64,000 nt of DNA from Dermatophagoides farinae. Lineage: Eukaryota; Arthropoda; Arachnida; Sarcoptiformes; Pyroglyphidae. Below are positions 2,092 to 32,367 of this stretch, in pieces. The translations under genes and the position numbers were made by a program. The notes under the pieces are model-generated. The model was not told where the DNA came from. It was given only the letters and a program-made list of their open reading frames with translations, and made no database searches. The first letter of the stretch is position 1. Each line of letters opens with the position of its first letter. The stretch spans positions 6,259,501 through 6,323,500 of the forward strand of contig NC_134680.1 of NCBI RefSeq assembly GCF_024713945.1. The letters run 5' to 3'.

Positions 2092-3826
2092 GTTATTGTT
2101 TTCAGTTGTGGTTGTCGTTGTTGTAGCCGGCACGAAATCTATAATAAATCACCCAACGAATAGAGAGAGAAAAAAAGAAAATTAACAATTATGAGAGAAA
2201 GAAATGCAAAAAACTTGATTTGATTAGAACAGCAAAAAAAAAATTTCTTTTGAACAGAAAAAACAACGAACAATGACATACATTGATAATTTCTCTATAT
2301 ATTCATCAAAACCAAACCAAAATCTTTGAATTGGATGAATGATTTGATTTGAACTTTTGAAAATGAGCTGTCGTTTTTGTTTGCCTGTAGCGCTGATGTG
2401 TTTAGAAAAATGAAATTTTTTTCTTTTGATTTGCGACTTGAAACAAACAACATTCAAAAACAAATCAAAAATAAACTAAAAAATTTATTTATGATGAACT
2501 TGAATAATAAAATGTGATGCGTATATATTTTATAAGCGAAGAGCGCGTGAGCGCGCGCGCGTTTTTTTTCACAATTTTTGAATCAAAAATCAAGATGATG
2601 ATGATTATGATTGTATCAATTTCATAGCAGTCTAAAGATCATAAGATCACCAGGAGACAAGAAAAAAAACAGCATGAATATGCATTCACATACGATGACA
2701 GCCTCTCCCTATATAAATTCTCTATATAGATATTTACAAAAAAAAATCTGTTGATTCTTGAATAACAATCTTCAAGAAGATTCTACAAACACACACACAC
2801 ACACACACACACATAAGCCACTGCCACTATCTTTCTTTGGAATTTTTTTCTTTTTTGCAGGTAGGGTAATAAGGCGTCGAAAGATTATCACACCACACAC
2901 TACAAACACATTACCATAAAAAAAACACCAAAAAAACCAGAAACGATATAAATAAAATAATCAAAAAAAAAAAAAAACCAAAACAACACTAAAACACACA
3001 CGCCAGGCTAGACCATCAGGACAATCAACTTTACACACTGTGTATGTGTGTGTGTGTGTGTGTGTAGATCAAAAGCATTCATCCATCAATTTTTTGTTGT
3101 TCTGGTTTCCACCTCCTAATTTGGAGAAGGATTTTTTTTCAAAAAATAAAAATTTAATGGCTTTAAAAAAAACCAGAAACCTGAATCCACAACAACCAGA
3201 GCCACCACCAACACCACTACACTACATTAAACCAATCATCATCTTCATAATCATCATCATCATTCATTCATCCATCCATCAACAAATAAAATTTCAACAA
3301 GCAGCAACTGGATGGCATCTACTACTACTACTACTACTACTACTTGTGGATAGGAAACTTGATTTTTGAATTCAAAAAAAAAAATTACTTATTGTTATTG
3401 AAATATATATAATTCTCATCATCATCATTCACCATTACCCACATAGGATAGAGCAAGAGAAATGAAATGAAACGAAACGATTTAAATTATTATTATTATT
3501 ATTCACACACATACATATAAAACATTCAAGAAAATAAAACGATTCCGAAATAAACCCATCATCATCATCATGATCATCAAATGTCATCCATCACACATAA
3601 ACCATAAACATTTTTCTTCCATCTATCTATCTATCTGTCACAAACTCAAACAACAACAATCGTAATTAGGTTCTCTTTTCGTTTGTTTCTGGGATGTTGT
3701 TGTGGTTATTGTTGATGTTGATGAGAACACATTGTTAGATTCTTTTCTGTAATTTCTTTTTTTTTCTATGTACTATAATCATCTATATATACTCTACTGG
3801 TGAATAATAATTTAGTTTATATTCAT
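2092..3826. other. Intergenic region / probable UTRs between MAP-like gene and PP2C gene
   Basis: Holds the candidate promoter described separately, a (CA)n run at about 2789-2813, a (TG)n run at about 3043-3066, short CAT/ACT triplet runs (3310-3345) and many poly-A/T tracts. The longest open frame (3040-3369, plus) is built from these repeats and does not look coding. The part beyond about 3800 is probably the PP2C 3' UTR. Confidence 0.5.
2521..2562 (-). promoter_or_regulatory. Candidate core promoter: TATA box plus CpG-alternating block
   Basis: On the minus strand a block of alternating CG dinucleotides (2537-2561) is followed directly by TTATAAAATATATA (2535-2522), about 430 bp upstream of the ATG at 2091. 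A TATA box in this orientation fits a start site near 2490-2500 for the MAP-like gene. The GC block stands out in very AT-rich surroundings. The assignment is inferred from sequence and spacing only. Confidence 0.35.
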
Positions 3827-12236
<8,410 letters not shown>

Positions 12237-25101: not shown

Positions 25102-26013
25102 AACTACAAAAAAAAAATTCCGGAAACTTTCTGAATGCAAAAATGGAGACATAAAAAAAACCAGTCTGAATATTCAAAGCTTTGAAAAAAAAACGAAGAA
25201 AAGTTGAATATTTATTGTCATCATAATGTTTTTTTTTCTGTTGGTTCATTCTCGATTTCAATTCAATTCAATTCAATTCAATTCCAGAAAATGTAGTCGT
25301 CGTTGTCGTCGCCGTTGTTGTTGTTGTTGTTGTTGTAAATTGCAGCAAAAGCAGCTTTTTTTCCATTTCTTGAACATTGTCGAAGAATAAGAATATATAT
25401 CGTATTTCTGGAAACCAACCCCCCACCCCCACGATTCCAACGCCGTCGCTTTTCACCACCGAAAACAAATAGCCTTGTTAATGGTTGTGGCCAAAACAAA
25501 ATGAATGAAAAGAATGGAAAAAACACACGAAAACATCATTCCTAATGGAATTAATGGAACCGATTTTAGAATGGAAAGAAAAAAAAACGAAAAAGAAAGT
25601 TTACGAATCATCATGGTTTGTTTGTTGAAAAATAATAAAATCTGGTTCCACATGTATACAAAAGTATACATGTGGAATGAATGTGTGCTCATTTTTTTAA
25701 TTGACTCATTTTTTGTTTGTAAAAAAAAAGTTTAAAAATTTTCTTTCCTTTCATTTTGGCTCAATTAATTATTTTTCTTTCTGTTTTTGTTTTTGTTTTC
25801 TTCTATAGAATTCGATACTATCGATACTATTGATGTCCGGTTCATTTTTCAGAAATTTTTTTTTCTTCTCTTCATCATTATTTTTCAATATTTTTAAACA
25901 CACACACACACACACACAAAAATGGACAAACAAATACAAAAATGAAAAAGAAAAAAAAATTTGAAATTTATTGTCCATAAATCATCAAAATATTGTTAGT
26001 GCTGGGTGGTTTT
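23542..26013. other. Convergent intergenic region
   Basis: Between the 3' ends of the orphan gene (+) and the UNC-93-like gene (-). Holds poly(A) signals for both (23797-23802 plus; 25972-25967 minus), long A/T tracts, GTT/CAA triplet runs and a perfect hairpin listed separately. No credible coding exon seen. Confidence 0.5.
25646..25677. repeat. Perfect 14-bp inverted repeat with AAAA loop
   Basis: TTCCACATGTATAC (25646-25659), AAAA, then the exact reverse complement GTATACATGTGGAA (25664-25677). It is not made from a simple repeat. It lies about 290 bp beyond the UNC-93-like gene's poly(A) signal. Confidence 0.95.
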
Positions 26014-26196
26014 TCAATAACGACGTTGAACATTTTGTTCATTATTGAATTGTATCATTTCGACATTATCAATGATTTTTTGATTATGATCATTATTAGT
26101 ATTGGTCAATGTTGCTGCTGAATGTCCATCAAAATCACGGTCATCATCATCATTATCATTATTACGATCATCGCTATCATTGTTGGCCATCAATAG
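26014..26196 (-). other. In-frame 60-codon extension after TGA-CTA: candidate stop-codon readthrough
   Basis: Downstream of the UNC-93-like TGA the same frame continues for 60 sense codons (begins LLMANNDSDDRNNDN, ends NNEQNVQRRY) to a TGA at 26016..26014. The context TGA CTA is the best-known efficient readthrough context in animals. The poly(A) signal (minus AATAAA, 25972..25967) lies just beyond the second stop, so the extension is expected to be in the mRNA. The first third is Asp/Asn-rich; the rest has mixed composition. The peptide would be a soluble, polar cytoplasmic tail. Readthrough is inferred, not shown. Confidence 0.5.
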
Positions 26197-29100
26197 TCAT
26201 AATTGTGATGTGGAACCGGGTCCAAGAATTTTTTCAAATTTCAATAATCTTAATTCACATAATTGCATCGGTATTATGGCAATAATTAACATTAGAATCA
26301 ATGTAAAAAGTTTTATATAAAGACAAATAAATTCACTCATTGCAAATGCAATGGCATAGCCTAAATTATTCAATGAATATAATGTAAGAAATGCATATTT
26401 CCATTCATCAGAACAAAATGTTCGTAATACATTTGCTTCAATTGATTGATTGATCGGTTGATTGATTGATTGATTGATTGGCAAGATAAAAAGAGAAAAA
26501 TAGAAAGAAAGAGAAAAAAAATCAATAAATGACATCACATTTTGGAATAATAATAATAATGATAATGATAAAAACAAAAATATTCAATTAGCAATCAAGT
26601 TAATAAAAAAAATAATGATAAAATAAAGAGATCAAAAAGATACAATAAATCGATGATCATTATGATGATGATGATGATTGATGATGAACAATACAAGGCG
26701 GTATATCCAAATGTCCATTAGAACGGAATTGATTCGATTCTTTTTCACAATCATCATCATCACAATCAACCAAATGATGAGATATTGTTTTCAACATTAC
26801 CATTGATTGTTCATGTTCATTAAAAATAATATCGTTTTCATTAAAACAACAACAACAACAACAACAACTACCGTAATAACAAAAATGAATGAATAATTGT
26901 ATTAGAAAATTGTATGCTGACCATAACCATGATGAACAACAGTAGCAATCATTTTGTTGATAATGATTATTATTATTATTCGATTGATCCATGAATAATT
27001 TTGCCGCCAATGAATGTTGTTGATCATCAGAATCATGTTGATGATGTTGTTCCTGGAATTTTACATGAAATTTTCGCCGTTTATTATTATTGTCATCGTT
27101 GTTGTTGTTGTTGTTGTTATTGTTGCTATAATCATCCAAGTCGTTCTGGTTATTCTGTAATAAAAATTCAGGAAAATATTGCTGTATGGTTGAAATAGAT
27201 TTATCGAATGTTTTTGTTGTTGTTGTTGTTGTTGTTGATTTGAGGATTGATTTTAAAACCATTTGTTTACCACCATTTTCTTCGTTACGATGGTGATGGC
27301 CATTTTCAATATCAATTTTCGATACATTTTTATTATTGATTTCGTCATTCGAGCAAACATTCATTGTTTGTTTTTATATATATTCTTATGATTCAAAAGT
27401 AAGGAACAAAAAACCTTTCAATTTTTTTTTCTCTCTCTTTCCAAATTTCTTTAATCTGATATATATAGAACAGGAAGACGAAGAAGACGAAAATGTCAAA
27501 ACCACCACGAATGTATTACAATTGAAGATGAAAAAAAAAAATTTGGCCCAGAAACACCAAAAAAAAAAAAAAAAAAAACTTTTTGTGTTTGTGCTTGTGT
27601 TCGAAAGCCTAAAGGCTAGGTTTGGTGTTTGTCTTTGTTTGTGTGTGTATGTTATTTTTCTCTGTTAAAAAATCTTTTCAATATTTTGTACGTGTATGAA
27701 TGAATGTTAAACGTTCATCATCATTTCCGTTGGTTTCGAATGTAAATTTTTTTTTTCAATGTTCACTTCTGTTCTGTGTTCTGTGTGTGTGTATGTGACT
27801 CAACGTTATCTTTTTTTTCTTCTTCGTTTTCTACTTCAGCCATCAGTCAGTCAGTCAATTTCACTGCTATTTTCAAATGTTATCATTTAGCCATTATTAT
27901 TATTATTCAACAACAAACAATAACCAACAAAACATTCGAAATTGATGAATGAATGAATGAATGAATGGATGGATGATGATGACATTGAATCAATATTTGT
28001 TCAATGATTTTTTTTGTTCTTTCTTATGTGTGTTTGTTTATTTGCTATTGATTGAATTGCAACGATTCATTCATTTATTCATTCTCATATATATATCACA
28101 TATATACATTCTCTTCTAGATTTTTCTTCCTTTTTTTTCACACATGATTATAATCAAAATATATCGTATATACAAACGACGACGACGACGACGACGACAA
28201 CAACAACAAAATACAGAAAAAAAAGTGGAATATTGTTATTTTTTTTCCTGCCATGAATATAAGACAAACAAAAACACACACGGAGAGAGAGGTGACAAGA
28301 TACAACAACAACAACAACAATCTAATATATCTCAAAGTGTGAGAGATATTGCTAAACCAGCAAAAAAATAAATACAACAAGAATTCGAAAGTCATGTCAT
28401 GTTCCAGAAAGATAAAAAAAAATTTTTTTGGTGAAACAATACATTTATATATCGTTGTTGCTGTTGATTGACCATTTCTACTTTATTCATGTCGATTTGT
28501 TGCTGTTTTTGTTTTTGAGAAATTTTGAGAATAAATTGTGCACTTATCCAACAACATCATCATCATCTTCATCATCGAATACAAATATCAACCTAATTGA
28601 ATTTGATAAACATGGTGGAGAAAAAGTATTTTTTTTTTTTGAACTTTTCTCATTTTTTATCCCGTTTCTGATGAAATAAGACTTTACGTTTTTTTTTGAT
28701 CATCATCATTTCTTCGCCACATATTTCATTTCTGGATCGCTTGTCTTTGTTGTATTTATCTAATAAGTTCTTTGGGTTTTTTTTTCCGTTTTTCTTCTTT
28801 TTTTTAGCTTCTCATTCTTCATTCTTCATTCTTCTTATTATTATTTTTGGCTTGTTCGATGATTGAGCATCATTATAATCATCATCATCACGATGGAATC
28901 CATATGATGATGATTAAGTGCGATAAAACCAAACACGCTCGGCTTAGCTCCAGTAAAAAAAAATCATCTTTTTCTTTCTTTGTTTATGTTTGATGTTGTC
29001 ATCGTTGTTGGTGTTGTTGTTGTCGATGTGTTTGTCGATTTTGAGAATAAAGAATGAATAGATAAATGAATGAAAAAAAAGAATACCCATTTAGGGACCG

Positions 29101-32100
29101 ACATCCAGAATCTCGAATATATAACATTAATTTTAATTTAGCTCAATTTATGCTCTGAGAATATGAAGAATTTAAGGCCTTTCATCATGATGATGATGAT
29201 AGATTTTCGCAGAGATAAAACAAACAGCAGAATATTTTTGTATAAGAATATAACCGAAATGGGAAAAAAAATGAATAGAAAAGATAACAACGGTATATAC
29301 TTACTAAGTAATAATGTTTCCATAATAGCATTTGCTAATGAATATGTGATTGTAATTACATAATATAATGGTATATCATCATTTGGGCGCCATAAATATA
29401 ATATTGCCAATACGGATAATTGACAAATAGCACCAGCCAATAAAACTATTGGTCTTTGTATATGACGTATGAATTCATAAACAAGTAATGTTGCACCTAA
29501 ATGAACAAATCCACGTGTCAACATAATTGAACCAATAGCTTGTAAGCCTAAGGCACAGCTTACATAAAGCTATATATGATGACCAAAGGGAATAAAAGAA
29601 AAAAGAATCGAAAATGAAACAAACAAACAAAAAGACGAATTCTATAAATTCTTAGCCAATGCTTAAATATTCATACCTTATTATAATCGGCCATAAAGAA
29701 TCCTTGTTCGAAACCAATAAAAAATGCCATTGGCAATAATAGTCGTAGATGATTGTCACGAAATGTACGAAATATAACATTACGAATTGAACATGATGGA
29801 TAACTTCTATGTTCTAATGGAACTTGTTGTTGTTGTTGTTGATAATATTCCTGATGATTCAATAGAAAAATGATGGCCATTAAAATGAACAATGAAATAA
29901 TGATAAAAATTGTCACAAGAATTTTGATGAAATTCTGATCGAATGTAGGTGTTTGCTGTTGAAGATTATTGTATGATAATGATATATCACCGGATGATGA
30001 TGATGATGATGTTGATGGCCGGAAATCATGATAATGATGTGAAAAAATATAATAAAATGCTTGATCACAGTATTGTTGACGAAATAAATGGATACAAATT
30101 GGTTTTATCGATGATGATGATGATGATGACGTCCATGTTTCTATTAATAAGATAAAATAGATTAATTTATAAAGGTTACAGAATTGACAAAAAAAATTCA
30201 AGAATCGGAATCAAGAAATTATTCATTCACTTGATTGATTAAATTATGATTTTTTTTCTTTGGGTATAATCCACTTTATTGTATTTTTTTTAGATCACAT
30301 ACTAGAGGAGTGTGAAGCTTGTCGAAAATAAAAAACAATTACTTCAAATGGTGAGAACAAAAAAAGAGCGAAAAATAATTCTCGTTTTTATTCCAGAAAC
30401 CGATTGGATTATAATCATTATCATCATCATGATGAAGATGAGATCGGCATAAGAATTACAATTATCTATATCTTGAATATCATTATCATCTTTCGCTTCT
30501 TTTCTTGTTTCATTTCATTAGAAAGAATAATAAAAAAGAAGAAAATTGATTCTCTAAAACACACACATACACAGACACACACATACACAACTTGTGATGA
30601 TGATAAAGATGCATGAAGAATACTAAAATGAACGAATAATTTGAATTTTCATTTCATTTTGTTTTGTTTTTGCACAATCTAGTTGTGTGTGTGTGTGTGT
30701 GTTTCACCCACTTTATTCACTCACTCATTTTTTTTCTGTCTCTCCAGAGTCTCAAAACATAAAACACATATACCATGATTTTAGTTCAAATGACAATTGG
30801 GTGATGAAAAAAAAATGGATTCTTTCATTTCATTTACACACATAGACACAGAGGGAAATAGAAAATCACGGATGCTCTTTGTGCACACACACACACACAC
30901 ACAAATCAATTAATCTTATTATTATACAACGAAAAATAAAAATAAAAATTCTATCCAACTAATTTATCATTCAGCTCATTCAGTATCATTCATTCATTCA
31001 TTCATTCATTCATTCAAATAATTTGGAAATTTACTTTTTTCCTTTTCAAAATTCTTTCATTTCACTATCAATGTTTTTTTTTCTTCTGATTCTTGGATTG
31101 AATTCTCTTCTTTTTTTTCAAATAAAAAAAACCAAGAGAAAGAATGATGATGTGGAAAAAAATCAAGAATATATTGAGAATGAAAGAATTTCCTTTGGGA
31201 ATTTTCAATATATATTATTATTATCAATCTAAATAGAGACCGCCAACCTCGAGAATTCATTCAGTGCGCGTATTTTGGTTAATAATAATTTTTGGTGATT
31301 GAATTGAATTTTCTATCGTTTTTCTTTTTCAAATATTGAATTGGGTGTGTTATAAAATGTTGTTTCAAGAAAAAAAAATTGATGAAAAGAATATCAATTC
31401 AATTTCAATTGTGTGTGCGTATATTTGTGGCAAGAAATTGTTGATACTTACCATGATTATGATGAAATTTTGATCCATTGATATGATGAGATGATGATTT
31501 CGATGATGATGATGATGATGAATATGAAGCAAAAACAATAACATAGATTAAATGGCCAACAATAAGCGATGGACAGAATAATAATTGATGTAAAAGACGT
31601 TGATAACGTTCTTCTTGATAACGTTTAATTGTTTGTGTTAAATGTACTAGATTGGACATGAATTTTGAAATAAATTCCAATTGTGCAGCATAAAATGGAC
31701 CAATAAATATTGTGAACAAAATAATAGCCATTTGAAATAGAATGAAATTATGAAAATAATGTATAAAAATGAACAAAATAATCGCCACTGTTGATATTAT
31801 TAATGTACGTTTTGGACCAAAACGTTGTACAAATGCTTGAGCATAATAAACAGATAAAGCACTGAACATAAAACCAATGGCGAAACCAATATATGTCCAT
31901 TGTCCATATTGATAACGATCGATGGTTAGTAAATTCTGTAAAATGCCCAATATCATTGTTGATGTAAAACTTAATATAATAAGATTACGCATTAAACGTA
32001 ATTCAATACCAACGAAACCATCTTGATCAAATGGTTGTTGTTCATTTATTGTTGTTGAATTTTTCATCATCATCATTTTCATTTTCATTGTTGTTGCATC

Positions 32101-32367
32101 ATTCATTTGATGTTCATTAACATCAATTTCATTTTGGTTTGATATATAGGCTACATTCGTAGACGTCGTTGTCATCAATTGTTGTTGTTGTTGTTGTTGA
32201 TCATTATGGATGAATGTTGATGACGATGATTGTCCACCATTATCACGATGGTCAAGATTAACATCATCATCATTATTTAGATGATCGAATATACAATAAT
32301 CACATTGTGTCGTATGATGATGATGGTGACAATGGCAATGATGATGATGATGATTTAAACTAAGCAT
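26197..32367 (-). CDS. UNC-93-like major-facilitator-superfamily membrane protein
   Basis: Four exons, 32367..31452, 30140..29677, 29569..29305 and 26435..26197, with phases 1, 0 and 1 all consistent; 627 residues to the first stop. After a cytoplasmic tail of about 115 residues (His cluster HHHHHCHCHHHHH, then Gln and Met/Lys-rich stretches) come LRLMRNLIILSFTSTMILG, the family start, and GILQNLLTID. Several hydrophobic segments follow, with ADYNK|LYVSCALGLQAIGS and MLTRGFVHLGATLLVYEF as in UNC93A-type proteins. A Ser/Gln-rich loop sits mid-protein. UNC-93 family members are membrane regulators of potassium channels or trafficking chaperones; substrate transport is unproven. Intron 3 is about 2.9 kb and contains another ORF. 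The stop at 26199..26197 is TGA followed by CTA, and the frame stays open for 60 more codons. The family call is good; the orthologue is unclear. Confidence 0.88.
26660..27364 (-). CDS. Hypothetical 234-residue protein nested in UNC-93 intron
   Basis: Uninterrupted ORF from ATG 27364 (aaacaATGaat) to 26660, same strand as the host gene and entirely inside its third intron. Contains VLKSILKSTTTTTTT (residues about 36-50), IQQYFPEFLLQNNQNDLDDY, a basic KRRKFHVKFQEQ segment, a hydrophobic WLWSAYNFLIQLFIHFCYYG and then seven consecutive Cys, and an acidic/His C-terminus. The hydrophobic helix followed by a Cys run suggests membrane association or S-acylation (inference). SILK plus a KFHVKF-type RVxF-like motif is the pair seen in some protein phosphatase 1 binding proteins (inference). 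I do not recognise a family. It could be an alternative exon or a separate small gene; low-complexity stretches temper confidence. Confidence 0.5.
   Translation of the reverse strand: MNVCSNDEINNKNVSKIDIENGHHHRNEENGGKQMVLKSILKSTTTTTTTKTFDKSISTIQQYFPEFLLQNNQNDLDDYSNNNNNNNNNDDNNNKRRKFHVKFQEQHHQHDSDDQQHSLAAKLFMDQSNNNNNHYQQNDCYCCSSWLWSAYNFLIQLFIHFCYYGSCCCCCCCFNENDIIFNEHEQSMVMLKTISHHLVDCDDDDCEKESNQFRSNGHLDIPPCIVHHQSSSSS
30984..31016 (+). repeat. (CATT)n tandem repeat
   Basis: CATTCATTCATT tandem of about 30 bp within UNC-93 intron 1. Confidence 0.85.

Follow-up and report, generated by a model that had tools for sequence, protein, structure and literature searches.

Codon content points to possible stop codon readthrough at the UGA-CUA stop of an UNC93-like gene in a dust mite

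The window analysed here is a stretch of 64,000 nucleotides (G000:C4:6259501-6323500) from a dust mite genome of 62.4 Mb in 22 contigs. Its minus strand carries a gene of four exons (Table 1) with a spliced product of 627 amino acids and no internal stops. The product has nine hydrophobic segments by a simple threshold, and the Pfam profile PF05978 (UNC-93) aligns to residues 159-603 with an E value of 3.3e-4. The score of 20.4 bits is below the curated cut-off of 22.9 bits, and the gene is therefore referred to as “UNC93-like”; the MFS_1 profile also scores slightly below its own cut-off. Solved UNC93B1 (7c76) matches the mite protein with an E value of 2.2e-7, and the best stretch, residues 334-608, includes most of exon 4, making the reading frame of that exon secure. 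Judged by sequence, the mite protein is divergent from UNC93B1. An earlier note on this DNA had described an UNC-93-like gene with this fourth exon and frame, a description borne out by the join of the four exons without stops and by the UNC93B1 homology. The exon 4 acceptor is weak, scoring -6.6 with a generic matrix that was not trained on mites. Its pyrimidine tract is unusually distant, about 45-85 nt upstream, with a (CAAT)n-like repeat between (26520-26435, minus strand).

Two further open frames were observed on the minus strand of the window. Intron 3 contains an ATG-initiated ORF of 234 codons (27364-26663, the same strand as the gene) with Asn/Gln/Cys repeats. Its codon score is close to zero, at 0.016 per codon, and resembles that of exon 4. 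A Pfam search with this ORF gave nothing better than an E value of 0.67; the ORF could be a gene nested in the intron, or else an alternative first exon. At 9446-9892, a long (AGAGAG)n-type repeat opens an Arg-Glu-rich frame of 148 codons.

Table 1. Positions, within the window, of the UNC93-like gene and the features around its stop codons
Feature	Position	Strand	Remarks
Exon 1, UNC93-like gene	31452..32367	-	start ATG at 32367; donor GTAAGT at 31451
Exon 2, UNC93-like gene	29677..30140	-	donor GTATGA at 29676
Exon 3, UNC93-like gene	29305..29569	-	donor GTAAGT at 29304, phase 1
Exon 4, UNC93-like gene	26197..26435	-	last two hydrophobic segments; ends with first stop TGA
First stop TGA, candidate readthrough codon	26197..26199	-	read from the sequence
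CTA after first stop (UGA-CUA-U context)	26194..26196	-	read from the sequence
In-frame extension, 60 codons	26017..26196	-	acidic; coding-like codon content
CAGCAGCA 8-mer within the extension	26113..26120	-	overrepresented among readthrough candidates of flies and mosquitoes
Second in-frame stop TGA	26014..26016	-	read from the sequence
AATAAA poly(A) signal	25967..25972	-	41 nt past second stop

Exon 4 ends with the codons GGT TCC ACA TCA CAA TTA TGA, followed by CTA TTG ATG GCC. The coordinates and frame of the 60 sense codons behind this stop, up to a second in-frame TGA, were confirmed. Between the first stop and the poly(A) signal, everything is open frame except the second stop and the 41 nt beyond it, in agreement with the claim that nearly the whole 3' UTR is an open extension with a poly(A) signal downstream. 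The extension would encode a peptide, LLMANNDSDD...NVQRRY, with a pI of 4.1, 14 Asp/Glu, 5 Lys/Arg and 13 Asn, and its description in the earlier note as a polar, partly acidic tail was thus accurate. The tail has no match in Pfam. Its only perfect match in the genome is itself, and the two other matches listed are weak (E 0.005 with 34% identity, and E 0.03 with 44%). Scans of viral contigs and of genome contigs for related sequences gave 30 and 20 stretches that fitted the search pattern, and none of these was confirmed as a relative. About 290 nt past the poly(A) signal, at 25646-25677, lies a palindrome with two 14-nt arms, TTCCACATGTATAC-AAAA-GTATACATGTGGAA; its Rfam matches (mir-299, U4) are weak and far under their cut-offs.

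Reference DNA for evaluating the tail comprised 264 kb of the same genome, namely the window and 20 random 10-kb stretches. At least 60 open codons follow 549 of the 18,716 non-coding stops in this DNA (2.9%, about 1 in 34). Openness alone is therefore unremarkable, and a codon log-odds model was built, with ORFs of at least 250 codons as the coding set, the UNC93 gene left out, and, as the non-coding set, frames of 10-60 codons that are not near any ORF of 120 codons or more. Under this model the tail has a score of 0.496 bits per codon, a value that 96% of 291 coding windows do not exceed. The median is 0.253 for the coding windows and -0.253 for 768 non-coding frames of 50-75 codons, none of which reaches the tail. 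When 1156 non-coding frames of 45-80 codons are used for the comparison, a single frame equals it.

The first 20 or so codons of the tail are rich in GAT and AAT, a D/N-rich composition that lifts its score, and the caution raised about this start was a fair one. Yet the signal persists when GAT and AAT codons are removed, with the tail again reached by just 1 of the 1156 frames, and the same count is obtained from synonymous choice alone. The last 40 codons by themselves are reached by 2 of 1742 non-coding frames. Among 24 non-coding ORFs in which at least 25% of the codons are for Asp or Asn, none comes near the tail, the best scoring 0.253 as against 0.496. A model trained without the window gives the tail a score of 0.457, which is reached by one of the 549 open frames behind non-coding stops. 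This sole equal, L019 + 3419-3602, is flanked by two long ORFs of its own strand and may itself be an exon. At the tail, stops occur in all five of the other frames, two on the gene's strand and three antisense, and a single one of them has a score above zero (9.1 bits in total vs 29.8 for the tail); antisense coding across the tail is unlikely. Since the codon content of the tail is like that of the mite's coding DNA, the tail appears, on the codon content of a single genome, to be translated now or to have been translated until recently. Codon content cannot separate a living tail from one whose translation recently ceased.

The same 264 kb contain other stops with which the UNC93-like gene can be compared. 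Behind 37 confident stops (those that end ORFs of 100 codons or more), no coding excess was seen in frame 0 (-0.254 vs -0.239 and -0.251), in a sample far too small for this comparison. A looser list of 66 stops includes the end of the tail itself (26016), the intron 3 ORF and, in some of the L021 + rows, frames that are shadows of long ORFs on the opposite strand; the UNC93 stop is missing from it because the hydrophobic exon 4 scores low (0.028 per codon). Two of the 66 stops are followed by 60 or more open codons, and both end ORFs of fewer than 100 codons that may be inner exons. A script went through each of the 95 TGA-CTA sites in the 264 kb and singled out the 12 that precede the longest open frames. 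Three further sites among these 12 precede coding-like frames. L021 + 5662 and L021 + 7393 were discarded, being read as shadows of an opposing minus-strand ORF of 1807 codons. L031 + 8369 has a coding-like frame of 73 codons behind it and 21 open codons before it, and is probably an exon start. None of the 95 sites combined at least 60 open codons before the stop with a coding score above 5, the UNC93 site itself having 128 codons and a score of -1.7. On the contig that carries the window (C4), near 4.17 Mb, two genes of the Blo-t-5 family (L044 and L045) lie on opposite strands about 1 kb apart; residues 20-131 of the L044 ORF (112 residues) are identical to the allergen Der f 21, which marks the source of the DNA as Dermatophagoides farinae or something extremely close to it.

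The context of the first stop has a counterpart in mammals. UGA CUA is the derived human consensus for high basal readthrough, and high readthrough was measured for CACNA2D4, with the context UGA CUA T (PMC4359377). MDH1 is also among the UGA-CUA readthrough genes (PMC12233894). In the mammalian genes of this kind (AQP4, LDHB, MDH1, CACNA2D4 and OPRK1/OPRL1), the stop and the next codon are identical to those of the mite gene. CACNA2D4 shares UGA-CUA-U with it, and LDHB resembles it in having no obvious 3' structure (PMC4359377). Important differences are that the LDHB extension is 18 nt, as opposed to a mite tail of 60 amino acids, that the mite has U at +7 whereas the highest mammalian readthrough goes with G at this position (PMC4359377), and that readthrough in the mite is proposed for another gene in another animal group. 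CTA directly follows 95 of the 15,762 TGAs in the 264 kb, counted in all frames on both strands (0.6%), and it makes up 168 of 18,849 coding codons (0.9%).

Evidence from arthropods is more mixed. Readthrough candidates of flies and mosquitoes are enriched in TGA and in a following C (PMC5100048). UGA-CUA had been described as an established readthrough context in flies and vertebrates; this holds for human cells (PMC4359377) and not for flies as far as the main text of PMC5100048 goes, from which “CTA” is absent. The Drosophila and Anopheles candidates of Jungreis and co-workers resemble the mite case in the TGA, the C next to it, the coding-like second ORF and the presence of CAGCAGCA within that ORF. 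They differ in that they come with PhyloCSF alignments and a conserved stop, whereas the mite case comes from one genome. The 8-mer carries little weight, since it was reported in 23% of readthrough candidates vs 8% of other transcripts, and over a longer region (PMC5100048); it occurs in 214 of 20,000 random 183-nt windows here. Abundant readthrough is apparently limited to Pancrustacea, and the single arachnid examined seemed to have considerably fewer such genes (PMC5100048), which lowers the prior for a mite. A search of the open-licence literature returned no report of stop codon or translational readthrough for Dermatophagoides, Ixodes or other chelicerates, and for UNC-93 in mites it returned unrelated papers.

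The chief rival to readthrough is a recent nonsense mutation, a confounder that readthrough studies need to exclude (PMC5100048). A sense codon would have changed to TGA in this lineage or strain, leaving the former coding tail as a 3' UTR that has yet to decay. This history is unlikely, but it would fully account for the coding-like codons of the tail. It also draws support from the comparison with UNC93B1, where the alignment ends at residue 608 of the query and at residue 514 of the 597-residue solved chain. Beyond this point the mite protein has 19 residues without the tail and 80 with it (the 19, one decoded stop and 60), so that the long form would come close to the 83 residues of the solved chain, as if it were ancestral. 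However, the mutation would have had to land before CTA, a rare coding codon, by accident. Moreover, 14 of 540 possible substitutions create stops. If sites are neutral and indels are assumed to amount to 12% of substitutions, two thirds of them frame-breaking, the frame would still be open with probabilities of 0.38, 0.15 and 0.02 after 0.05, 0.1 and 0.2 substitutions per site, respectively. Given how fast this probability falls, the nonsense mutation would have to be young. A sequencing or assembly error that created the TGA within a normal long gene would take a single wrong base; it too would need to fall just before CTA, and is extremely improbable. A genome-wide DNA search, with 40 of 116 candidates scored, gave one full-length match, which is the locus itself, and 47 others that are short repeat matches of fewer than 100 bases. 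The matches listed thus give no indication that the locus has a second copy or is a collapsed one.

Other accounts concern how the tail might be reached, or whether it is coding at all. Alternative splicing could join exon 3 to an acceptor inside the tail, or a short intron could remove the TGA. Two acceptors (TTCAG/CAGCAG at 26117 and 26114) are compatible with the phase of exon 3 and, at -2.2 and -0.7 respectively, outscore the exon 4 acceptor under the generic matrix; in addition, 11 frame-preserving introns of at least 40 nt could span the TGA. However, splicing to 26117 or 26114 would remove the last two hydrophobic segments and give no account of the first 26-27 codons of the tail. None of the seven GT sites that precede the TGA in exon 4 scores better than -2.4, compared with 5.5, 3.5 and -0.3 for the gene's own donors (generic, non-mite matrix), and scoring of donors and acceptors across exon 4 and the tail found no good intron that skips the TGA. 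We regard splicing as improbable. A 3' UTR rich in GAT and AAT could hold such an open frame by chance, but this is quite improbable. Tracts of GAT/AAT are frequent in this DNA, and open frames at least as long as 60 codons follow 2.9% of non-coding stops; against this, only one frame in 549 is equally coding-like, no Asp+Asn-rich non-coding ORF comes near, and the maximum in frame 0 behind the 37 confident gene-end stops is 0.108. Finally, an ATG 6 nt past the TGA (TGA-CTA-TTG-ATG) could start a separate peptide of 58 codons, reached by reinitiation or from another transcript. The start codon is close behind the stop, and the intron 3 ORF hints at a further same-strand transcript, for example one starting in intron 3. 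However, this ATG has T at -3, a poor start context, reinitiation behind an ORF of 627 codons is rare in eukaryotes, and the match in frame to the UNC93 exon would be an accident, which together make a separate ORF very improbable.

Because UGA-CUA is a high-readthrough context in human cells and the tail is coding-like, readthrough at the stop of the UNC93-like gene is the preferred and best explanation, with a likelihood that we place slightly above even. Of the earlier proposal of a candidate programmed readthrough, the gene, the frame, the TGA-CTA, the tail and its coding-like codons all stand; the ribosomal readthrough itself is what we infer from the stop context and the tail. On assumed rates, a rough estimate of the number of such genes expected per genome is far below 1 from chance, about 0.1 from recent nonsense mutation, and about 1 given a handful of true UGA-CUA readthrough genes. 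Under the readthrough model, the UNC93-like mRNA would carry a leaky UGA-CUA stop at which most ribosomes terminate, giving the 627-amino-acid protein. In a minority of ribosomes, a near-cognate tRNA would decode the UGA, adding one residue and the 60-amino-acid tail. The acidic, Asn/Asp-rich tail would sit at the C-terminus, past the last transmembrane segment, and would end at the second UGA. That readthrough would be confined to a minority of ribosomes, and what the tail would do, we infer, the latter by likeness to vertebrate UNC93B1.

The leak would be due to the stop context itself rather than to RNA structure. The 134 nt from the stop showed no stable structure, with an MFE of -19.2 vs a shuffle mean of -21.15 (z 0.63), and 149 of 200 shuffles were as stable or more so; structure-stimulated readthrough was rejected on this z value. 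Decoding of the UGA as selenocysteine was also rejected: an Rfam scan of 25500-26700 with E values up to 1 gave two weak matches, neither of them a SECIS, a scan that a divergent SECIS could escape. A six-frame search of the genome, in which 11 of 11 candidates were scored, found only one PF05978 gene above the cut-off, on contig C7 (L009-L011). This paralogue ends in TAA-TAA, with no extension, which counts against readthrough. A match on contig C1 (E 0.02, L017) was judged to be a chance one on reading its sequence.

A possible role for the tail is suggested by UNC93B1, the TLR chaperone whose sequence matches mite residues 334-608. In mice and human cells, the C-terminal tail of UNC93B1 is regulatory; it regulates TLR7 through syntenin-1, whose binding requires it, and nearly all mutations in it increased the response of at least one TLR (PMC11116816). 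A minor long-tailed form of the mite protein could act similarly. One difference is that the available part of PMC11116816 gives no hint that the vertebrate tail depends on readthrough. A further proposal, which is tentative and rather doubtful, is that the gene represents a conserved, regulated switch of chelicerates, in which a leaky UGA-CUA would allow an UNC93-type chaperone to be made in a short-tailed form and in a minor form whose acidic tail is about as long as that of UNC93B1, and termination would set the amount of the partner-regulating tail.

If the stop arose by a recent nonsense mutation, the locus is an example of ordinary gene-end turnover. The analysis also shows that, where relatives are lacking, readthrough candidates can be told apart from chance frames by codon content within a single genome. 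Readthrough in the UNC93-like gene would have added interest because the host is a chelicerate. The switch, if true, would extend functional readthrough to mites, which lie outside the clade in which it is considered common. A solid dust-mite case, in a protein whose vertebrate relative is regulated through its C-terminal tail, would show that chelicerates use readthrough and would supply a simple test gene.
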